Assembly: GCA_903891375.1 (NCBI GenBank)
Contig: CAITEL010000353.1
Coordinates: 1 to 12,163 of the forward strand
Origin: an uncultured Neisseriaceae bacterium
GTDB lineage: Bacteria; Pseudomonadota; Gammaproteobacteria; Burkholderiales; UBA11063
Direction: 5' to 3'
DNA: 12,163 bases
The translations under genes and the position numbers were made by a program. Positions 1 to 9,039 of this stretch are shown piece by piece; within the stretch, counting starts at the first letter, position 1; each line of letters starts with the position of its first letter. Below the pieces are notes generated by a model that saw only the letters and a program-made list of their open reading frames with translations, was not told the DNA's origin and made no database searches.

Positions 1-111
1 AACAATAGGCCAAGAAAGGTTCTTGGTTATTTAACTCCTAATGAGGTTATGTTTAAACATTTAAATCACGTATATCGACATAAGGGTATTAGTGTCGCAT
101 TTGAAGCTTGA
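1..111 (+). CDS. IS30-family transposase, C-terminal fragment (5' end outside window)
   Basis: Frame 1 is open from the first base to TGA at 109-111 and gives 36 residues starting NNRPRKVLGYLTPNEV. This is the hallmark C-terminal signature of IS30-family DDE transposases (the LNNRPRKxLGxxTPxEVF block just after the catalytic glutamate of the integrase core). The catalytic D, D and E residues lie upstream, outside the window, so activity cannot be judged. The product would cut and join the element's ends during transposition. The gene is complete at its 3' end and looks undamaged in the visible part. Family assignment is firm from the motif; the IS species is not identifiable. Confidence 0.85.
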   Translation, partial: NNRPRKVLGYLTPNEVMFKHLNHVYRHKGISVAFEA

Positions 112-117
112 ATGGGC
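1..117 (+). mobile_element. Right end of an IS30-family insertion sequence (left part outside window)
   Basis: The first 111 bases encode the C-terminus of an IS30-type transposase, so the 3' end of an insertion sequence enters the window here. The reading frame of a membrane acyltransferase begins immediately after it, in another frame and without its own N-terminus, which places the element's edge at roughly 112-120. The exact edge and the terminal inverted repeat cannot be fixed because the left end is not in the window. IS30 elements usually carry the transposase stop codon close to or inside the right inverted repeat, which fits an end only a few bases past the TGA at 109-111. Confidence 0.7.
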
Positions 118-893
118 GTCTGATTTATTTTTACACTCAAGGGATTACTTTTTACTGGCCAGCATTACTTTATACGCCTGTTTCATCACATTTGTGGTAT
201 CTGTATGCTATTATTGGTGTCTACTTGTTTATTCCAGTTATCAGACGTTTTGTACAAAACGCTACAACAGTTGAAATTGTGTATTTTTTACTCCTTTGGC
301 TGTGTATCTTGACTGGAATATGGGTTATTGGGTTTACTGTAGGAGACGCTGACTCAGGCATTGATTTAATTGCAGTTTATCAATTATATCCATTTTGTGG
401 TTATATTGGGTATGTGGTTTTAGGTTATTTTTTATATTATAGATGTATAAATAAGAATGTAAATAATATTAAACGTAATCGAATAATTAAAAATATATCT
501 TTACTTGTCTTTTTCTTGAGTGCTTTAGTTATTTTTACGGCAACTTTTATTGTTTCAAAGAGTGAAAGTAAACCGACGCAATTATTTATGACATATTTAA
601 CACCTGTTGTTGTAATCGGAAGTGGCACATTTTTTTACTTTATGTTACAAAGTGAAAATATTAAGGAAAAATTAAGCATTACAAATAAAATAATATCGTT
701 TATTGCTAAATATTCGTTTGGTATATATTGTGTTCATTCTTTTGTCTTAGAATACATAGTACATTTGGCAGTTATATCAAGAAGCATATTAGAATGGATA
801 TATTTGCCACTTTTAGCAATAGTGGTACTGGTCATAAGTGTTGGGATAGTGCGTATTATGGGTATGATAAAACCTTTAACCTATGTTATTTAA
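108..893 (+). pseudogene. Acyltransferase-3 family membrane protein, 5'-truncated by IS30 insertion
   Basis: The frame ending at TAA 891-893 encodes a very hydrophobic protein with about seven membrane segments. It includes an SSHLWYLYAIIGVYLFIPVIRR stretch split around residues 46-66, typical of acyltransferase-3 proteins (OatA/WecH type), which O-acetylate surface sugars. Such proteins usually have about 330-380 residues and about ten membrane helices. Only some 258 remain, and the N-terminal helices with the conserved catalytic histidine and arginine are missing. The only upstream initiation codon, TTG at 108, overlaps the transposase stop region and lies within the insertion sequence, so the N-terminus was removed by insertion. 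A chance product from that TTG is possible but should lack catalysis. The stop codon itself lies in the left arm of a palindromic repeat, so the natural 3' end may also be altered. The true left edge is about 112-120. Confidence 0.7.
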
Positions 894-1000
894 CTACTCA
901 CTTGCATCAATTGCCTCGTCATATTTTGATGACTTATGTACTATAAAAGTACACGGCGCCATCAAAATATTTAGATACAATGGCGCATGTGAGTAGTTAA
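890..1000. repeat. Palindromic repeat copy 1 (111 bp)
   Basis: The ends are a perfect 12-bp inverted repeat, TTAACTACTCAC at 890-901 and its complement at 989-1000. Inside, 921-933 pairs with 958-970 (13 bp, one A.C mismatch), and TGTACT 937-942 pairs with AGTACA 948-953 around loop ATAAA. The two inner stems are separated by an internal loop, TTA (934-936) facing CGGC (954-957). Copies 2 and 3 lie at 5455-5563 and 8566-8660. The element overlaps the stop codon of the truncated acyltransferase and sits upstream of mnmG. No T-run follows, so it is not a classical intrinsic terminator. It could be a MITE, a REP/BIME-like unit or a structured 3'-UTR element. Confidence 0.9.
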
Positions 1001-1051
1001 TGTTAATACCTGCATTAGTTCTAATTAAAATAAAATGGAAAATAAATTATT

Positions 1052-2938
1052 ATGATTTTTGATAAAAAATTTGATGTGATTGTCATTGGTGGCGGTCACG
1101 CTGGTACAGAGGCATGTCTTGCTTCAAGTAGGATGGGTTTACAAACATTACTTATAACACATAATATAGAGACCTTGGGGCAGATGTCGTGTAATCCCTC
1201 AATTGGTGGTATAGGTAAAGGACATTTGGTGAAAGAAGTTGATGCTTTAGGTGGTGTAATGGCGATTGCTACCGATCATTCAGGAATACAATTTCGTACT
1301 TTGAATGCGTCTAAAGGTCCAGCGGTGCGGGCCACACGTGCCCAAGCTGATAGAATTTTATATAAAGCATATATTAGAAACATTTTAGAAAATCAAGAAA
1401 ATTTAACGTTATTTCAACAGGCGGTTGATGATTTAATAATTGAACAAGATAAAGTTACAGGCGTTGTAACTCAATCAGGGATTATTTTTAAAGCAATTAC
1501 AGTTATTTTAACTAATGGTACGTTTTTAGGCGGTAAAATCCATATAGGGTTACAAAATTATGTTGGTGGAAGAGCAGGTGACCCAGCATCAATCAGGTTA
1601 TCTGAAAAACTGCGAGATTATAACCTACCTGTATCTCGTTTAAAAACAGGAACTCCTCCCCGAATTGATGGTCGTACAATTGATTTTAGTGTAATGCAAG
1701 AACAACCAGGAGATATACCATTACCTATATTTTCATTTCGTGGGGCTAGAGAGTATCACCCTCGGCAAGTTTCATGCTGGATAACTCATACAAATGAAAC
1801 AACGCATGATATTATTCGAGGAGGATTAGATAGATCACCAATGTATACAGGTATAATTGAAGGTGTTGGGCCAAGATATTGTCCGTCAATTGAAGATAAA
1901 ATCAATCGTTTTAGCGAAAAGACCTCACATCAAATATTTATGGAACCTGAGGGCTTAACTACAAATGAATATTATCCCAATGGTATATCAACATCTCTAC
2001 CATTTGATGTGCAATTAAATTTAGTACATTCTATGCGTGGGTTAGAAAAAGCACATATTTTACGTCCAGGCTATGCAATTGAGTATGATTATTTTGATCC
2101 AACTAGTTTGAAATCTAGTTTAGAATCTAAATTAATATCAGGATTATTTTTTGCTGGGCAAATTAATGGCACTACTGGTTATGAAGAAGCTGCGGCACAA
2201 GGAGTTTTAGCAGGTATTAATGCAGGTTTATATGTACAAAATAAAGATGCTTGGTGTCCTAAACGTAATGAGGCTTATTTGGGGGTACTTGCTGATGACC
2301 TTGTCACAAAGGGTGTTACTGAACCTTATCGTATGTTTACGTCACGAGCAGAATACCGCTTACAATTACGTGAGGATAATGCAGATTTACGTTTAACTGA
2401 AATGGGTAGAAATCTTGGTGTTGTTGGTGATTACCAATGGGGTTTATTTTGCCGTAAACGTGATGTAATATTTAACGAGATTGAACGTTTAAAATCTATA
2501 TGGGTTAATCCTAAAATAGTGGGTAGTGAATTAGCTCTTGAGGTGCTAGGTAAAGAGTTGGAGCATGAATATTCTTTACATGATTTATTAAAACGTCCAG
2601 ATGTTAGATATACTGATTTAATCAAATTGCCAAAGTTTGGTGATGATGTTATTGTTGATGATCGTACGTGTGAGCAAATAGAAGTACAAATAAAATATGC
2701 TGGTTATATTGTTAGGCAACATGAAGAGGTTGGCAAACAAGCATATCTAGAAGATATTAAAGTGCCGAATAATATTGATTATACTAAAATCAGTGGCTTA
2801 TCGGCTGAAGTTATTCAAAAACTAAATAAATTTAAGCCAGAGACGTTGGGGCAAGCTTCTAGAATCTCTGGAATTACTCCAGCGGCAATCTCGTTACTAT
2901 TAATTTACCATAAAAAAGGGTTTCCGAGAATATCATGA
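1052..2938 (+). CDS. mnmG: tRNA uridine-5-carboxymethylaminomethyl modification enzyme MnmG (GidA)
   Basis: MnmG is the FAD-dependent partner of the GTPase MnmE. Together they install aminomethyl or carboxymethylaminomethyl groups at C5 of wobble uridine 34 in certain tRNAs, in the cytoplasm, using methylene-tetrahydrofolate. The 628 residues match the family's usual length of about 620-630. Visible marks are the FAD-binding GGGHAG (residues 13-18), [12 protein letters not shown] (47-58), [11 protein letters not shown] (196-206), GPRYCPS (273-279) and [17 protein letters not shown] (368-384). The two conserved cysteines are at 47 and 277. The C-terminal helical region after about 550, which binds MnmE and tRNA, is present. 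ATG 1052 is the only sensible start: the ATG at 1034 closes after six codons. The Shine-Dalgarno is weak (GGA about 13 bases upstream). The stop overlaps the start of the GtrA-like gene, implying co-translation. The usual follower rsmG is absent. Confidence 0.97.
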
Positions 2939-3333
2939 AAGCAATAATAAAAAAAATCAAACGTCACCATATTAAGCAAGTAATTATTTTTGGTATGGTA
3001 GGTGTGGCTGCGTTATTAGTACAGGTTGTGTTATATTTTGTTTTATGTCGTTTAAGCTTAAACCCTTTATATGCTACTTTTATTGGTAATGGTATGGGCA
3101 TGATCGTTGGATATAAGGGGCATACTAAATTTACCTTTGAGCGTACACATAAATTTTCGCATAAAGAATTTATAAAATATGTGGTAACCTCATTAATTGG
3201 TTTAGCCATTAATAGTACAGGTGTTTATCTTCTGGTTACTCTTTTAAAATATCATAGTGACGTCGGTTTAATTCCTATGTTTATTACTCCTGTGGTAACT
3301 TTTCTTATTAGCAAATTTTGGGCATTTAAATAA
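2935..3333 (+). CDS. GtrA-like small membrane protein
   Basis: This 132-residue protein has a basic N-terminus (KKIKRHH) and four hydrophobic segments at about 13-38, 43-60, 78-102 and 110-129, the size and topology of the GtrA family. The end, with a ...[11 protein letters not shown] pattern, matches the family's closing K-[FY]-W-x-F motif, and the [18 protein letters not shown] stretch (51-68) matches the second-helix region followed by the aromatic 'TF.F' element. GtrA relatives are thought to move polyprenyl-linked sugars across the inner membrane for surface polysaccharide modification; the substrate here is unknown. The ATG overlaps the mnmG stop in an ATGA arrangement (2935-2938), so translation is probably coupled. 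No glycosyltransferase partner is visible nearby. The family call is fairly firm, the function is not. Confidence 0.85.
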
Positions 3334-3347
3334 AGGACAAAAAAGAT

Positions 3348-3803
3348 ATGAAGTATTGGTTAATGAAATCTGAACCGTCAGAATGTAGTATTGATAACTT
3401 AGCAAAATTGCCTAATCAATCGATAGAATGGTTTGGGGTAAGAAACTATCAAGCTCGCAATTTTATGCGTGATGAAATGAATAAGGGTGATTTGGTATTG
3501 TTTTGGCATTCTTCATGTAAAGAACCAGGGATTTATGGAATGGTCAAAGTTACTACAAAAGCGCATCCAGATAGTACGCAATTTGATATAAATAGCGAGT
3601 ATTATGATCCTAAATCAACTACTAACACACCGAGATGGTGGTGTGTTGACGTGAAGTTAGTTAAAAAAACACCCTTTGTGTCGATTGAAGAACTACGAAA
3701 ACATCCAGAGTTAGAAAACATGCAGGTGCTAAGGCGTGGTAATCGCTTATCAATAACGCAGGTAACGCCTGAAGAATGGAACTTCATTCAAAATTTAATT
3801 TAG
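3348..3803 (+). CDS. EVE domain-containing protein
   Basis: The 151 residues form a single EVE domain (PUA-like fold; thymocyte nuclear protein 1 type). Landmarks are MKYWLMKSEPSE at the N-terminus, WFGVRNYQARNFMRD (28-42), GDLVLFWHS (47-55), GIYGMVKV (61-68), RWWCVDV (95-101) and the closing MQVLRRGNRLSITQVT (124-139). EVE proteins bind nucleic acids, and several studied members recognise modified bases. The target of this stand-alone bacterial type is unknown. An AAGGAC sequence lies about 10 bases before ATG 3348 and acts as a good ribosome binding site. It follows the GtrA-like gene by 14 bp, so it is probably the last gene of the mnmG operon. Its stop is only 10 bp from the stop of the convergent gene on the other strand. 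Confidence 0.92.
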   Translation: MKYWLMKSEPSECSIDNLAKLPNQSIEWFGVRNYQARNFMRDEMNKGDLVLFWHSSCKEPGIYGMVKVTTKAHPDSTQFDINSEYYDPKSTTNTPRWWCVDVKLVKKTPFVSIEELRKHPELENMQVLRRGNRLSITQVTPEEWNFIQNLI

Positions 3804-3813
3804 GTCACAGCGG

Positions 3814-4590
3814 TTAATCACCCCCCCCACCCATCTTCACATATACTATATATCCTGCTAATTCGTGTAGTAGTTGTGAGCAATCAAGCATAGTCCCAGC
3901 ATTTGGTATAAAGCTTGCGAGAGTTGTTTTGCGGGTGTAATGCCCCATATAGTCAGTTGGAGCTGCAATAGCATCAATTCCATATCTACGAAATAAAGCT
4001 ACAGCACGAGAGACGTGGTATGCTTGACTGATTACTGCGACATCAGATATATTCAGTTTTTTAAGCATATCTGATACGTTTTTAGCATTTTCATTGGTAT
4101 TGCGCGAATGTTCTTCAATTAATATCTGGTTTTTGATGTTGTAATTATTTAACATCGAATCTTTCATTATTTGTGCTTCCGAATGATTCTTTGGTGCAGC
4201 AATACCCCCAGATAAAATTATCAATTTTGTTGGGTATTGTTTGGCTAAAAAAGATGCATATTGAATCCGCATAATCGTGTAAGAATTTAAAGAAAATTTA
4301 TCAGGGTATTCATAAGCATTAGTTTTAACTCCACCGCCTAATACAATAATAGCTTGACTTTTTTCTAATTCAGCAGTAGAGATTTGTGGCTTTTCAAAAA
4401 AACCAGAAATCGAATAAACAAAAAATGGCGTAGCCTGAATATACAGTAAAATACAGCCACTAATTATAAACCATCGTGCTATCTGACTTCTTTTATTAAG
4501 AACACTTATTCCAATTAAAATTAGAATAATAGCATTTAGTGGAGGAAGAATTAAGCTTTGTAATAAATGGTGTATAAAAATTAACGACAT
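3814..4590 (-). CDS. ElyC/SanA/YdcF family protein (DUF218)
   Basis: The protein has two N-terminal membrane helices (about residues 15-32 and 40-62) followed by a DUF218 domain: IIVLGGG (81-87), LIILSGG (127-133), the SEAQ motif, IEEHSRNTNENA, and VISQAYHVSRAVALFRRYG. With the ATG at 4590 it has 258 residues, close to E. coli ElyC (259), and its C-terminal region aligns in outline with ElyC's end. ElyC-like proteins act at the inner membrane in cell-envelope integrity and peptidoglycan or lipid-carrier metabolism; the reaction is unsettled. A longer version from TTG 4638 (274 residues) is open, but it adds no recognisable sequence and has no ribosome binding site, so ATG 4590 is preferred. 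The last codons contain eight consecutive G (C at 3821-3828 on the + strand), encoding the GGGGD tail. The gene is convergent with the EVE gene and divergent from phaB. Confidence 0.85.
   Translation of the reverse strand: MSLIFIHHLLQSLILPPLNAIILILIGISVLNKRSQIARWFIISGCILLYIQATPFFVYSISGFFEKPQISTAELEKSQAIIVLGGGVKTNAYEYPDKFSLNSYTIMRIQYASFLAKQYPTKLIILSGGIAAPKNHSEAQIMKDSMLNNYNIKNQILIEEHSRNTNENAKNVSDMLKKLNISDVAVISQAYHVSRAVALFRRYGIDAIAAPTDYMGHYTRKTTLASFIPNAGTMLDCSQLLHELAGYIVYVKMGGGGD
3821..3828. repeat. C8/G8 homopolymer at the 3' end of the DUF218 gene
   Basis: Eight consecutive C on the + strand (G in the coding direction) lie in the last codons of the DUF218 gene. In an AT-rich region this is the longest G/C run visible. 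A seven-base tract would replace the GGGGD tail with a longer one ending at a TAA overlapping the EVE stop region. A nine-base tract would end the protein right after the glycines. Such tracts can slip in replication, but they also attract sequencing errors. Confidence 0.9.
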
Positions 4591-4713
4591 ATAAAGTCCA
4601 ATAAAAATAGAACTGTGAGGTGTTATATTGTAGTACAATTACGCTTTACACAAGTAGTTATTTTATATTAAACGAGAGAAATATTTAAATATTTTTTAAT
4701 TCAGGAGTTTTTT

Positions 4714-5451
4714 ATGTCAAAAATTGCATTAGTTACAGGTGGTATGGGTGGAATAGGTACGGCAATATGCAAAACTTTATCTAACAGTGGATATCAAGTA
4801 ATTACGACTTATTTAGGTAATGAAGAAAAGGCTAAAAATTGGTTATATCAAACATCAAATGAAGGGTTTTCGTTCAAAGCTTTTAAATGTGATGTTGCTG
4901 ATTTTGATTCTTGTGGCGAGGCTGTCACTCAAATAAAAACTGAAATCGGGAATATATCGATTTTAGTAAATAACGCAGGTATTACTCGAGATGCCACTTT
5001 AAGAAAAATGACAAAAGAGTCGTGGAGCGAAGTATTGCGTACAAATTTAGATAGTTTATTTAATATGACTAAACATGTTTTAGATGAAATGTTAGAACAG
5101 TCATGGGGTAGAATAATAAATATATCATCAATTAATGGACAAAAAGGGCAGTTTGGCCAGTCTAATTATTCGGCAGCTAAAGCTGGAGTTCATGGCTTTA
5201 CCATGGCAGTTGCACAAGAAACAGCTAAAAAAGGTGTAACAGTAAATACTGTTGCACCAGGGTATATCGCAACCAATATGGTAATGGCGGTTCCTGAGGA
5301 CGTAAGAAATAAAATAATATCTGGAATTCCTGTTGGAAGGCTTGGTAGAGCTGAGGAGATTGCTGCGTTAGTTGATTTTTTAGCATCAGAGCATGCCTCT
5401 TTTATCACAGGTAGTGAGATAGCGATTAACGGTGGTCAACACATGATGTAG
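4714..5451 (+). CDS. phaB: Acetoacetyl-CoA reductase PhaB
   Basis: PhaB reduces acetoacetyl-CoA to (R)-3-hydroxybutyryl-CoA with NADPH, the second step of polyhydroxybutyrate synthesis in the cytoplasm. The 245 residues match PhaB of other bacteria (about 246). It is a classical short-chain dehydrogenase: cofactor motif TGGMGGIG (8-15), NNAG (86-89), Asn111, and the catalytic Ser139, Tyr152 and Lys156 in YSAAK. The PGYIATNMV and GRLGRAEEIA segments near the C-terminus are also typical of PhaB rather than FabG, and the neighbouring phaC and phaA support this; a FabG role alone cannot be excluded from sequence. A strong ribosome binding site (CAGGAG, about 7 bases before ATG 4714) fixes the start. 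A palindromic repeat separates it from phaC, so phaB may be transcribed partly on its own. Confidence 0.93.
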   Translation: MSKIALVTGGMGGIGTAICKTLSNSGYQVITTYLGNEEKAKNWLYQTSNEGFSFKAFKCDVADFDSCGEAVTQIKTEIGNISILVNNAGITRDATLRKMTKESWSEVLRTNLDSLFNMTKHVLDEMLEQSWGRIINISSINGQKGQFGQSNYSAAKAGVHGFTMAVAQETAKKGVTVNTVAPGYIATNMVMAVPEDVRNKIISGIPVGRLGRAEEIAALVDFLASEHASFITGSEIAINGGQHMM

Positions 5452-5454
5452 GTA

Positions 5455-5563
5455 TAACTACTCACAGGCATCAATTCTATCGTCACATTTTGATTGCTTA
5501 TGTATATTTAAATACACGGCGCAATCAAAATGCTTAGATATAATTGCGCCTGTGAGTAGTTAA
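5455..5563. repeat. Palindromic repeat copy 2 (109 bp)
   Basis: The ends form a perfect 15-bp inverted repeat (TAACTACTCACAGGC at 5455-5469 against 5548-5562). The middle stem, 5486-5497 with 5521-5532, is a perfect 12 bp. The apical stem is TGTAT 5501-5505 with ATACA 5512-5516. The internal loop TTA (5498-5500) facing CGGC (5517-5520) is the same as in copy 1, while the stem sequences differ in a paired way (GATG/CATC there, GATTG/CAATC here). It starts 3 bp after the phaB stop codon and lies between phaB and phaC. TA bases stand at both ends, as would be expected for an IS630/mariner-type TA duplication. Confidence 0.92.
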
Positions 5564-5593
5564 TTTACTGAGCATCAATTTTATCGTAATAAT
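5564..5593 (+). promoter_or_regulatory. Possible sigma-70 promoter for phaC-phaA
   Basis: TTTACT (5564-5569, four of six against TTGACA) lies 18 bp before AATAAT (5588-5593, five of six against TATAAT). Transcription would begin near 5600, just ahead of the AGGGAAG ribosome binding site, giving a very short leader. The spacer contains a stray copy of part of the palindromic repeat's left arm. AT-rich DNA yields many such matches by chance, so this is only a candidate. Confidence 0.28.
5572..5587 (+). repeat. Solitary left-arm fragment of the palindromic repeat
   Basis: GCATCAATTTTATCGT matches the left arm of the full copies: 15 of 16 identical to copy 2 (5468-5483) and also 15 of 16 to copy 3 (8573-8588). 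No matching right arm follows. It starts 9 bp after copy 2 ends, so two left arms sit in tandem in front of phaC. A weaker relic of the same segment follows copy 1 at about 1010-1024. Confidence 0.7.
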
Positions 5594-5614
5594 AAATATC
5601 AGGGAAGCAATTGT

Positions 5615-7357
5615 ATGGCTAAAACGAATACAGAATTAGATAATTTATTCTCAAATATTGCCTCAGCCAATAAAGAATGGTTTAATAATTTGGTTAAAGT
5701 TGAGAATAAAGAAGAAAACGTGTTTCTGGATATGTATAAGAATTTTTTTGATAATACTAAAGGCTATTTGGAGGCGCAACAAAATTTTTATACTGAACAA
5801 ATTAATATGTGGAAAAGATTTTTTCATGATACTGGTAAAGATGTTGATGAAGAAGCACATAAATTACCAGTAGATAAAAGATTTTCTGATTCAAATTGGG
5901 CGTCTAATCCTTTTTTTGCATATCTAAAAAATAGTTATTTAACTATGTCTGGTTACCTTGTTGATGCTGTGTCCAAATCAAATATGGATAGTGAGACCAA
6001 AGAACGCATTAGCTTTTTTATGCGTCAATATTTAGATGCAATTTCTCCAACTAACTTTGCATTGACAAACCCAGAGGTTATTAAAAGTGTGATTGAAAGT
6101 GGCGGTGCATCTTTAGTTGAGGGTATGAAAAACATGGCCGAAGATATGCGGAATGGTTATATTACTATGACGGATGAATCACAATTTTCAGTTGGAGGTA
6201 ATTTAGCTATAACCAAAGGTAAAGTAATTTTTAAAAATGAATTAATTGAAATTATTCATTATACACCACAAACAGATACTGTGTATACTATTCCATTATT
6301 GGTGGTACCACCGTGTATTAATAAGTATTATATTCTAGATTTACAAGAAAAAAGTTCATTGGTTAAATATCTTGTTGATCAAGGGTATGATGTATTTTTA
6401 GTTTCATGGAAATCAGCTGATAAATCAATGAGTCAATTCCGTTGGGAAGAATATGTCGAATTAGGTATGGTAAAAGCAATAGAAGTTGTAAGAGAATCCA
6501 CAAAAACAGATAAAATTAACACCTTGGGTTATTGTATAGGTGGCATAATACTTACAACAGCATATTTGGTGCTACAAAGCCGTGGGGTAGATTGGATTAA
6601 CTCTATGACACATATTACAACGATGTTAGATCATTCAGATCCAGGTGATATTAAATTTTTTATTGATAAAGATTTAATGGAGCTTAAAGAGGCTAAAACG
6701 CATGCTGGAGGTGTTATGTCTGGTAGGACTATCTCTCAAACATTTTCGGCATTACGGGCCAATGAATTAATTTGGAATTATTGGGTGAATAATTATCTAT
6801 TGGGTAAGACCCCCCAGCCATTTGATATTTTATTTTGGAATAATGATACAGTTGATTTACCAGTTTTAATGCATTCATTCTTATTAAAGCGTTTGTATTT
6901 ACATAATGAGTTGGTTAAGGGGAATTTACATATATGTAATGTATTAATGGATGTTTCTAAACTTAATTGTCCGTTATATTTGTTTGCGGCACAAAAAGAT
7001 CATATCGTGCCATGGCATTCCGCATATAAAACTTTAAATTATGTAAAAGAAAATGTGCGTTTTGTTTTAGGTGCGTCAGGTCACACTGCTGGAGTTATCA
7101 ATCCAGTTAGTCAAGATAAACGAAACTATTGGGTCAATGAAAATATTGCTACAACACCAGAGGATTGGTTTAAAAACGCTACTGAGATGCCTGGCAGTTG
7201 GTGGAAAGATTATAGCACGTGGTTAATTCAGTATTCTGGTGAGAGGAAAAAACCAAAGTCACAATCAGCAAAAGCAAAATATAAGCCACTTTATGATGCT
7301 CCAGGTGAGAATGTGCGAGCAAAATCATTAAATATACTTGAAGTAGAAACAATATAA
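5615..7357 (+). CDS. phaC: Class I poly(3-hydroxyalkanoate) synthase PhaC
   Basis: PhaC polymerises (R)-3-hydroxybutyryl-CoA into polyhydroxybutyrate on the surface of cytoplasmic granules. The 580 residues fit class I synthases (about 560-600). An N-terminal helical region (about 1-185, including NPFFAYLKNSYL at 98-109) is followed by an alpha/beta-hydrolase core. The lipase-box-like GYCIGG (305-310) puts the nucleophile at Cys307; Asp462 (in KDHIVPW) and His490 (in GASGH) complete the triad. The 28-residue Asp-to-His spacing equals that of the Cupriavidus enzyme (Asp480, His508). The C-terminus has the class I pattern ending in PGSWWKDYSTWL and a basic tail. ATG 5615 follows an AGGGAAG ribosome binding site about 8 bases upstream. 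phaA follows after 23 bp and is surely co-transcribed. No phasin or phaR gene lies in the window. Confidence 0.96.
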   Translation: MAKTNTELDNLFSNIASANKEWFNNLVKVENKEENVFLDMYKNFFDNTKGYLEAQQNFYTEQINMWKRFFHDTGKDVDEEAHKLPVDKRFSDSNWASNPFFAYLKNSYLTMSGYLVDAVSKSNMDSETKERISFFMRQYLDAISPTNFALTNPEVIKSVIESGGASLVEGMKNMAEDMRNGYITMTDESQFSVGGNLAITKGKVIFKNELIEIIHYTPQTDTVYTIPLLVVPPCINKYYILDLQEKSSLVKYLVDQGYDVFLVSWKSADKSMSQFRWEEYVELGMVKAIEVVRESTKTDKINTLGYCIGGIILTTAYLVLQSRGVDWINSMTHITTMLDHSDPGDIKFFIDKDLMELKEAKTHAGGVMSGRTISQTFSALRANELIWNYWVNNYLLGKTPQPFDILFWNNDTVDLPVLMHSFLLKRLYLHNELVKGNLHICNVLMDVSKLNCPLYLFAAQKDHIVPWHSAYKTLNYVKENVRFVLGASGHTAGVINPVSQDKRNYWVNENIATTPEDWFKNATEMPGSWWKDYSTWLIQYSGERKKPKSQSAKAKYKPLYDAPGENVRAKSLNILEVETI

Positions 7358-7380
7358 ATAATTTTTAAGGTTAAATTAAT

Positions 7381-8565
7381 ATGAATAAAAACATAGTAAT
7401 CGTTGCTGCTAAGCGTACGGCAGTTGGTAGCTTTGGTGGTTCTTTGGCGAAATTATCTGCGCCAGAACTAGGCAGTATCGTGATAAAAGCTCTTTTAGAT
7501 GAGACAAAAGTAAACCCAGCAGATATTTCTGAAGTCATTATGGGGCAAGTGTTAACTGCAGGTAATGGGCAAAATCCAGCTCGTCAGGCAGCATTAAAAG
7601 CAGGCTTACCTAAAGAAGTTCCAGCGTTGACTATTAACCAAGTATGTGGTTCAGGCTTAAAAGCAGTACATTTAGGAGTGCAGGCAATTAAAAGCGGAGA
7701 TGCAGAAATCGTTATAGTTGGTGGACAAGAAAATATGTCATTATCTCCACATTTATTGTATGGTATGCGTGATGGTATAAAGATGGGCAATACACCATTA
7801 GTTGATTCTATGGTATTTGATGGATTGACTGATATTTATAATAATTATCATATGGGAGTTACTGCGGAGAACATTGCAGAAAAATACAATATTTCCAGAA
7901 GTGCACAAGATGAATTTGCAGTTAAATCGCAAAATAAGGCGGAAGAATCTTCACGTAAGGGTAAATTTGATAAAGAAATAGTACCAGTTTTAATACCACA
8001 AAAAAAAGGTGAACCAATTTTATTTGCTAAAGATGAATTTATTAAATCTGGCGTTACAATGGACTCGTTAGCCAAACTACGCTCAGCATTTAAAAAAGAT
8101 GGTACAGTTACTGCAGGAAATGCCTCAGGAATCAACGATGGTGCAGCTGCTGTTATGTTAATGACGGATGAAAAAGCTAAAAGTTTAGGGTTACAACCGT
8201 TAGCTTATATTAAAGCATATGCTTCGGCAGGGTTGGAGCCTGAAATTATGGGTATGGGGCCAGTATCAGCTACTAGATTAACTCTAGCTAAAGCTGGGTG
8301 GGAAATAAAAGATTTAGATTTAATTGAGGCGAATGAAGCATTTTCAGCACAGGCTGTGGCAGTTAATAACGAACTTGGATGGGATGTTAACAAAGTAAAC
8401 GTAAATGGTGGTGCTATTGCCATTGGGCATCCAATTGGTGCTTCTGGGTGTAGAATTCTAGTATCATTGATACATGAAATGAATGAAAGAAATGCAAAAA
8501 AAGGGTTGGCTACATTGTGTATAGGTGGGGGCATGGGGGTTGCTTTAGCTCTCGAACGTCAATAA
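7381..8565 (+). CDS. phaA: Acetyl-CoA C-acetyltransferase (beta-ketothiolase) PhaA
   Basis: PhaA condenses two acetyl-CoA into acetoacetyl-CoA, the first step of polyhydroxybutyrate synthesis. The 394 residues match biosynthetic thiolases (about 393). All key groups are visible: nucleophile Cys89 in [12 protein letters not shown], the NEAF segment (318-321), His350 in [10 protein letters not shown], and the second catalytic cysteine Cys380 in LCIGGGMG. The N-terminal [16 protein letters not shown] is also typical. ATG 7381 has an AAGG ribosome binding site about 11 bases upstream. The gene lies 23 bp after phaC, and palindromic repeat copy 3 starts directly after its stop, marking the end of the pha cluster. 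Use in general acetoacetyl-CoA metabolism is possible as well, but the neighbours point to polymer synthesis. Confidence 0.95.
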
Positions 8566-8660
8566 TTCCTCTGCATTAATTTTATCGTCATATTTTTGTG
8601 GCTAATGTATATTTAATACACGGTGCCACCAAAATATTTAGTTAAAATTGTGCATAGGAG
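8566..8660. repeat. Palindromic repeat copy 3 (95 bp, lacks outer arms)
   Basis: This copy begins right after the phaA stop codon. It keeps the core: middle stem 8590-8602 with 8625-8637 (13 positions, one mismatch), apical stem TGTAT 8606-8610 with ATACA 8616-8620, and the internal loop TAA (8603-8605) facing CGGT (8621-8624). The outer TAACTACTCAC arms of copies 1 and 2 are missing; the ends pair over ten positions with two mismatches (8566-8575, 8651-8660). The middle stem reads GTGGC/GCCAC where copy 2 has GATTGC/GCAATC, again a largely paired replacement. It looks like an older or shorter member of the family. Confidence 0.85.
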
Positions 8661-8700
8661 TTATTGCTAGATTTTTTATTTTTTATAGGTTTAAATAGTA

Positions 8701-9039
8701 ATGGCATATATAATAACGGAATCGTGTATTAAGTGTAAATACACGGATTGTGTAGATGTTTGTCCTGTGGATTGTTTCCGTGAAGGGCCAAATTTCTTAG
8801 TAATTGATCCAGACGAATGTATAGATTGTACTTTGTGTGTGGCGGAGTGTCCAGTTGAGGCGATATATCCTGAAGACGAGGTTCCAGAAGAGCAAAAACA
8901 TTTTATAGAAATAAATGCTAGCTTATCTAAGCATGCAAATTGGACACCTATCACGGCAAAAAAAGATGCACCAGCAGATGCGGATGAATGGACTAAAGTT
9001 AAAGAAAAATTTCACTTGTTGGAACGTAATGGTGCGTAA
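8701..9039 (+). CDS. fdxA: 7Fe ferredoxin (FdxA, Azotobacter FdI type)
   Basis: This small cytoplasmic electron carrier of 112 residues closely resembles Azotobacter ferredoxin I (about 106 residues). By alignment, Cys9, Cys17 and Cys50 bind a [3Fe-4S] cluster and Cys21, Cys40, Cys43 and Cys46 bind a [4Fe-4S] cluster. The two extra cysteines, Cys12 and Cys25, are the non-ligand ones also found in FdI. The C-terminal half ([36 protein letters not shown]) matches the family's extension. In FdI-type bacteria the protein is linked to redox stress and NADPH:ferredoxin reductase, but the partner here is unknown. ATG 8701 has only a weak AGGT ribosome binding site. It is 8 bp ahead of rpoH, so it probably heads that operon, and repeat copy 3 ends 40 bp before it. 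Confidence 0.95.

Follow-up and report, generated by a model that had tools for sequence, protein, structure and literature searches.

What are three long palindromes of nearly the same shape doing in one short stretch of bacterial DNA, and why do their internal loops stay constant on stems that vary? The stretch (here called the window) is the 12,163-nucleotide (nt) contig CAITEL010000353.1 from an uncultured Neisseriaceae bacterium, one of 422 contigs of a 2.08-Mb genome that is 94% complete and is referred to below as the own genome. The palindromes are probably non-autonomous insertions similar to miniature inverted-repeat transposable elements (MITEs), members of a class-wide superfamily that spreads through a factor reading the folded loops and of which the Correia repeat enclosed elements (CREE, or NEMIS) are one branch.

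All three palindromes lie on the plus strand, measure 108 to 109 nt and share a common fold with constant internal loops and paired changes in the stems. Palindrome 1 (891-999; fold z -6.9/-9.6) begins with the TAA stop codon of an upstream open reading frame (ORF; 108-893, plus strand) with an acyltransferase domain. Its loop 1 consists of CGTC (917-920) facing TTAG (971-974) and its apical loop of TTA (934-936) facing CGGC (954-957; pattern match 934-958). Palindrome 2 (5455-5562; z -10.6/-13.9) lies 3 nt past the stop codon of a phaB-like ORF (4714-5451, plus strand) and ahead of phaC (5615-7357, plus strand), with CGTC (5481-5484) facing TTAG (5534-5537) and TTA (5498-5500) facing CGGC (5517-5520; pattern match 5498-5521). 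Palindrome 3, the most diverged (8560-8667; z -8.2/-7.1), has an outer stem that includes the end of the thiolase gene (7381-8565, plus strand), namely its last codon and stop codon; CGTC (8586-8589) faces TTAG (8638-8641), and TAA (8603-8605) faces CGGT (8621-8624). The loop 1 letters are conserved in alignment A1. On either strand the folds gave z-values of -6.9 to -13.9, and none of the 200 shuffles per fold did as well in any of the six. An earlier sequence-only reading had placed the three copies at these positions; its extent for the third fell short, as this copy extends beyond it by 6 nt on the left and 7 nt on the right. The loops that it described (TTA or TAA facing CGGC or CGGT, and CGTC facing TTAG) occur in all three copies, and its stem pairs GATG/CATC, GATTG/CAATC, GTGGC/GCCAC, TGTACT/AGTACA and TGTAT/ATACA were all recovered.

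The window type, designated type I, is repeated elsewhere in the own genome. BLAST returned 24 matches there; the count takes in fragments, and one match is on the reverse strand. When 60 relatives (22 of the genus) were searched at the DNA level, no matches appeared outside the own genome, and relatives were reached by covariance models only, whose E-values derive from short calibrations and are rough. Model R1, built from 12 own-genome type-I copies, produced 55 matches at E<=1, and 28 distinct places at E<=0.002 were counted by hand, where the sequence-only reading had thought a total of three copies fatal to a maintained structure. Split by eye, 25 of these places represent type I or derivatives of it that arose by deletion and three (C209:8061, C159 and C87) belong to sister types. 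Both-side changes occur in 18 of 41 pairs of the 12 copies (mean of shuffles 5.8, with none of 500 reaching 18), and 92.9% of their stem cells are paired, so that pairing is not broken as often as it is kept. The earlier proposal that the structure itself is retained is strongly supported by such double changes in four copy sets. Type I also varies in architecture. Tandem units of about 102 nt, the last one truncated, occur in C283 (L003) and C27 (L004), and one of these arrays carries a fused internal deletion. A copy in C290 has an extra apical insert, and by eye the apical hairpin is deleted in C175 (L042), C62:5327 (L044) and C77 (L066), which resembles the outcome of slippage at short repeats.

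Types II and III are sister types. In seven other genomes of the genus R1 gave matches at 28-40 bits, in which the stems mostly differ and the apical module is alike (CCTT.TG.. facing ..CACGGCG or near variants). The exact apical pattern matched in 6 of 23 genus genomes, the reversed control in none; in two of the six (G002 and G018) the match is single and lacks the fold. Two further models were built with neither window copies nor CREE: R2 from 19 type-II copies of the genus, and R3 from 15 copies of other Burkholderiales families and three genus copies. R2 found matches in 13 of 23 genus genomes (1 to 99 each) and in 37 of 399 genomes of the order, 9 of these in the genus. Since one palindrome can count on both strands, 142 matches in one set correspond to 76 places. 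By eye, the best 20 regions outside the genus (21 matches) carry the same loops on other stems, with the greatest divergence in L235 and L236. R3 matched 120 of 369 genomes and 100 of 272 genera of the class, counts that take in two genomes of the order, one of them the own genome, and 20 class-level matches picked from the top of the list have an alike fold by eye. Within the window the three palindromes are the top three matches of both R2 (E 1.3e-5, 8.8e-6 and 5.9e-7 for palindromes 1 to 3; next place 0.44) and R3 (E 1.7e-5, 1.2e-5 and 5.1e-6; next place 0.27). In a control of 49 kb of E. coli K-12 the best E was 0.19 for R3 and 0.55 for R2.

Both-side changes affect 29 of 46 pairs in the 19 type-II copies and 35 of 43 in the R3 set, with 0 of 500 shuffles as high in either case. 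A 30-copy alignment, A6, was assembled from 20 class-level copies, two copies of family f44, one of Conchiformibius steedae, three CREE, the P. veronii and Halomonas records of the plasmid collection and two type-I copies. It was fitted to R3 and leans towards the structure; with that bias, both-side changes occur in 39 of 43 pairs (389 cells versus 113 in shuffles; 0 of 500 as high). GCGTT facing GCCTTG is near-invariant in A6, as is an apex of CT(T/C)A..TA facing TA..C..CG. Because unpaired columns average 0.91 bits and paired ones 0.73, the constant core is made up of the loops and their adjoining pairs; 11 of the 24 columns with at least 1.3 bits are unpaired. Rfam yielded 0 matches over its gathering cut-off in the window, and tRNAs only in 14 relatives at E<=0.1. 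BLAST with class- or order-level copies found none in phages or E. coli genomes, and none in plasmids for one copy; another copy hit three plasmid records, among them a partial match in Ca. Fukatsuia (L379). Four class-level copies (L356, L359, L360 and L363) form stems of very high stability (-64 to -87 kcal/mol, flanks included); by eye, several are bordered by TA on either side, and a TAG stop codon precedes the start of L363 and of L359. The three palindromes belong to a large family of small mobile repeats, so far apparently unrecognised, that includes the Correia repeats.

To our knowledge, CREE have been thought confined to Neisseria. The comparison with them was prompted by the family f44 copies, which resembled CREE. 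The N. gonorrhoeae record NZ_CP119140.1, of chromosome size although classed as a plasmid, contains 34 exact repeat-plus-core CREE starts, of which 12 were made into loci. R3 matched 10 of the 12 at E<0.001 (best 3.6e-9), on the same strand and end to end, and gave E 1.8e-13 on the C. steedae plasmid copy; R1 matched f44 (1.5e-6 and 7.2e-5) and C. steedae (0.0015). The Correia-like element of the C. steedae plasmid NZ_CP059562.1 (L239, 1502-1608) overlaps the end of an annotated thermonuclease gene in the same direction, a placement like that of the window palindromes. At the level of letters the likeness is absent: the Correia repeat TATAG[CT]GGATTAA has 18 matches in the window at up to three mismatches (14.8 expected by chance), none at the palindrome ends, and the Correia core CCGGTACGGCGTTG has 0 at up to three mismatches. 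The sequence-only reading, which knew no named family with this sequence and set the palindromes apart from the Correia element, was therefore right about the sequence and wrong about kinship, since models made without CREE find both. The kinship is more than a general likeness of hairpins, because the window copies head the R2 and R3 lists and the 49 kb of E. coli K-12 hold nothing below 0.19. On this comparative evidence the window palindromes and CREE are branches of one superfamily in which the loop core is kept and the stems covary. In a literature search, with subscription papers mostly outside it, no paper joined CREE to elements beyond Neisseria, and the class-level sequence strings were not met in any paper.

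That the palindromes move is indicated by sites with and without them. The closest relatives of the PhaC protein of the window (54-63% identity) are encoded in L105-L109, stretches of metagenome-assembled genomes labelled Neisseriaceae, Neisseriales or Burkholderiales, which places the window in an uncultured Burkholderiales lineage. The thiolase-ferredoxin (phaA-fdxA) gap measures 9-13 nt in L105, L106, L107 and L109 versus 135 nt in the window, and the fifth relative, L108, has another gene order at this site. The site of palindrome 3 is thus empty in four of the five relatives compared, from which we conclude that the palindromes are insertions; the sequence-only reading had noticed neither this nor the position of all three at a stop codon. 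By eye, L105 itself (JAIEPY010000042.1) holds a type-II element at about 3125-3255 on the minus strand; it was the one item taken from a generic hairpin scan of the five PhaC loci, which was otherwise rejected as too loose. In contig C23 (L014, C23:2469-2573) a 105-nt type III palindrome (TACTTAAC..TAAGTA) is nested in a type-I copy, and removal of this palindrome plus one TA restores a complete type-I palindrome, with the TA duplicated. Another type III palindrome lies in frame within argS (L071, 1484-1588; own genome C159:3983-4087), between the catalytic and DALR domains, where the query has 50 residues and the arginine--tRNA ligase structure 6ao8 has 10. Genome G021 has five near-identical copies with differing flanks and a common right border about 37 nt past the hairpin; four begin with TATACTC and the fifth (L310) with AATGCTC.

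Partial direct repeats of the left arm trail some copies. Once copies with masked bases or short flanks had been dropped, they were found 3' of the hairpin in 11 of 73 copies of type II and 5 of 13 of type I, whereas none occurred 5' of it or in shuffled flanks. For type II the repeat matches the copy's own arm more commonly (11/73) than the arms of other copies (36/438); for type I the own arm is not commoner (5/13 versus 32/78). Behind palindrome 2 such a partial repeat occupies 5565-5591 on the plus strand (repeat D15, 81% to 8566-8592, the left arm of palindrome 3), and behind palindrome 1 a likely decayed one (ATACCTGCATTAGTTC) was seen by eye at 1006-1021, also on the plus strand; these repeats are fuller behind other copies. 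The idea that the right arm is a copy of host sequence was dropped as unproved.

Several results weigh against a single mobile superfamily that includes CREE. The TA duplication comes from one type III case, and the relatives of the window copies are too diverged for it to be read there. R2 reached E<0.001 at 4 of the 12 CREE loci and <0.06 at 9, R1 did no better than E 0.056, and two 155-bp CREE were missed by both R2 and R3 (R3 E 0.078 and 0.81). Type I lacks loop 2, the GCGTT facing GCCTTG loop, two type-I rows being gapped there; it has the apical loop and, by eye, a counterpart of type-II loop 1 (CGTC..TTTG facing CAAA..), so that its kinship rests on two loops and the model scores. A measure of further pair types in A6 was reached by 108 of 500 shuffles. 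No mobilising enzyme was found at the 25 loci scanned of 55 listed IS630 matches or among the Y1 transposases, and arm-to-arm copying of DNA could by itself yield paired change.

Long near-perfect palindromes are prone to such copying, and a rival explanation holds that template switching or gene conversion keeps the arms alike without any selection for structure. The type-II set used to weigh it comprised 75 copies from 60 stretches of G004, G013 and G021, high-scoring listed matches and not a random draw; they are the places above 67 bits, one of 35.7 bits having been left out. Pairs of these copies, which are not independent of one another, show 78 one-arm versus 2 both-arm changes when they differ at 0-3 stem letters, and the both-arm share climbs with distance to 80-89%; eight disjoint close pairs gave 19 one-arm changes and 1 both-arm change. 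Mutations thus appear to arise singly and to be compensated later. Such stepwise compensation speaks against arm copying, even though mutation followed by correction could give the same pattern and both-arm changes come with few G.U or A.C intermediates, as copying would have it. Copying would also wipe out the internal loops, yet the loop letters and their adjoining pairs are the most conserved part. We consider arm copying as the sole cause very unlikely. In the close pairs conserved columns changed at 0.012 per site versus 0.097 in variable columns; since the conserved columns are kept even there, selection at the level of spreading and at the level of the host are not separable.

The pair counts bear on whether DNA or RNA is read. 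In 34 well-paired column pairs (2,526 stem cells) there were 2,370 Watson-Crick pairs, 31 G.U, 55 A.C and 70 others; by column, 9 favour G.U and 10 favour A.C, and hence there is no sign of the wobble tolerance of a sense-strand RNA. Of the two strands, the antisense one gives the better fold in 68 of 75 type-II copies, 11 of 12 type-I copies and 5 of 7 CREE. Together these observations fit recognition at the DNA level slightly better than a sense RNA, although they are not decisive.

Placement at genes can be read in favour of RNA. All three window palindromes overlap, or begin within 6 nt of, the stop codon of a same-strand gene. Of the 24 type-I copies listed, with each array taken as one, 16 are found between -6 and +9 nt of a same-direction stop codon. 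Among type-II copies, 32 of 70 have a same-direction stop codon no more than 5 nt from their left end; five of the 75 were dropped as lying within an ORF or with a flanking gene not seen, and genes were taken as ORFs of at least 90 codons instead of curated calls. If the copies were placed at random within their spacers, 4.4 would be expected (standard deviation 1.9, maximum 15 in 100,000 draws). Two copies show the mirror, antisense case; a tail beyond the right end explains part of the 32:2 ratio and makes it an unfair comparison, so that the claim is limited to the left end being flush. In 25 type-II copies the upstream gene lies on the minus strand, and seven of these copies are no more than 5 nt away from its start codon. 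An element behind a stop codon would sit between operon genes, and in the mRNA it would very probably act as a 3' hairpin and a substrate of a double-strand RNase, as published for CREE, which are RNase III targets in mRNA according to excerpts of PMC2649163 and PMC10969869. One may then ask if the hairpin serves the host, kept for stabilising, processing or ending the upstream mRNA in the manner of repetitive extragenic palindromes (REPs) or RNase III sites, with mobility incidental. The position near sense stop codons and the RNase III precedent agree with this. Against it, R2 has no matches in 10 of 23 genus genomes (several incomplete), G.U is rare and does not exceed A.C, the antisense strand folds better, and two terminator-like sites predicted in 700-9000 are both away from the copies. 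We regard a host-serving RNA element as unlikely.

If the elements are instead mobile and read through their fold, as we prefer, a trans-acting factor would recognise the folded element via its unpaired loops, and a copy would spread only while its stem still presents them; this would keep the pairing and leave most stem letters free. Our best inference is that the constant loops are recognised by a protein or within an RNA. The candidates for a mobilising enzyme fell away. As a MITE of the resident IS630 type the palindromes should share its ends, and at the 25 loci scanned of 55 listed matches no type-I end was seen; two loci, L325 and L335, have weak type-II arm matches. A Y1/RAYT transposase was likewise rejected: Y1_Tnp (PF01797) occurs in 6 of 23 genus genomes, is not found in the own genome, and is absent in 5 of the 10 genus genomes with at least 14 R2 matches and present in the other 5, which also counts against our interpretation. 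A BLAST search of plasmids with two short arms for a parent transposon returned three chance-level matches (E 0.2-0.6) in one search and none in the other. A conventional account would be that both ends of a MITE are bound by one enzyme, with no hairpin involved, and that covariation reflects terminal inverted repeats that follow different transposases. The TA target and terminal inverted repeats are ordinary MITE features, and the outer stems vary by lineage. The inner and apical stems, however, covary within a few genomes of one genus (alignments A3 and A4), although a single enzyme should suffice for all copies there, and each side of the mismatched loops has conserved letters of its own; we judge this account quite unlikely.

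Going beyond recognition of the fold, it is tempting, if doubtful, to see in the invariant loops the address of a novel transposition system working on the element as a folded single strand, with TA duplication and insertion at gene ends. The antisense strand is proposed for it because that strand folds better. Such a system would resemble the integron integrase acting on attC in reading unpaired bases, and would differ in TA-duplicating insertion at gene ends; if it exists, it would have seeded hairpins class-wide, including the long-orphaned Correia elements.

The genes around the palindromes encode Pfam domains of an acyltransferase, MnmG/GidA, GtrA, EVE, DUF218, a short-chain dehydrogenase, PhaC, a thiolase, a ferredoxin and a sigma-70 factor. 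The dehydrogenase gene is called phaB-like by its position, and the sigma-70 factor is rpoH-like in our reading.

Class-wide kin with a fixed loop core offer many natural variants, make the mobiliser searchable by co-occurrence and turn retention of hairpins at the DNA or RNA level into a countable question, while the covariance models could annotate unnamed intergenic hairpins across many genomes.

How do the palindromes compare with known systems? The attC site of integrons is an imperfect hairpin read via unpaired bases, with stems free to vary, found behind stop codons. The superfamily shares the imperfect hairpin, the variable stems and the position; its copies differ in being mostly dispersed singles, with TA duplicated in a sister type. 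By eye and without an attC model, the three window copies showed RYYYAAC only at 888-894 and no GTTRRRY partner. Rickettsia palindromic elements, set beside the superfamily by description and not by sequence, are likewise palindromes tolerated in frame inside genes, as type III is in argS (described in part in an excerpt of PMC3733652). According to the same excerpt, GTAG- and CGTC-tagged REPs, which go with RAYT transposases, are palindromic and lie mostly downstream of genes, GTAG REPs often supplying the stop codon; they are 20-40 bp long with a terminal tag, in contrast to about 108 nt with internal loops here. At 108-109 nt, and with no PF01797 in the own genome, the window palindromes do not belong to the GTAG REP/RAYT group.

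CREE come closest. Excerpts of PMC10969869 and PMC2649163 describe them as known since 1988 without a mobilising enzyme, the mobiliser being given as not determined in the latter, a 2009 paper, and, together with an excerpt of PMC5039591, as mobile, often at TA and twice at CA. Shared features are a full-length hairpin, commonly of 105-107 nt, in many copies, matched by R2 and R3 on one strand and end to end; ACGGCGTTG facing CGCCTTGTC and CCTT..GTAC facing GTAC..CTGCGG; and the TA target (PMC2649163, excerpt). The window copies differ in their ends (TAACTACTCA), in having no 26-bp Correia repeat, core or GCGTT loop, and in following stop codons; in one strain, by contrast, 71 of the 113 CREE lie 5' of genes (PMC2649163, excerpt).

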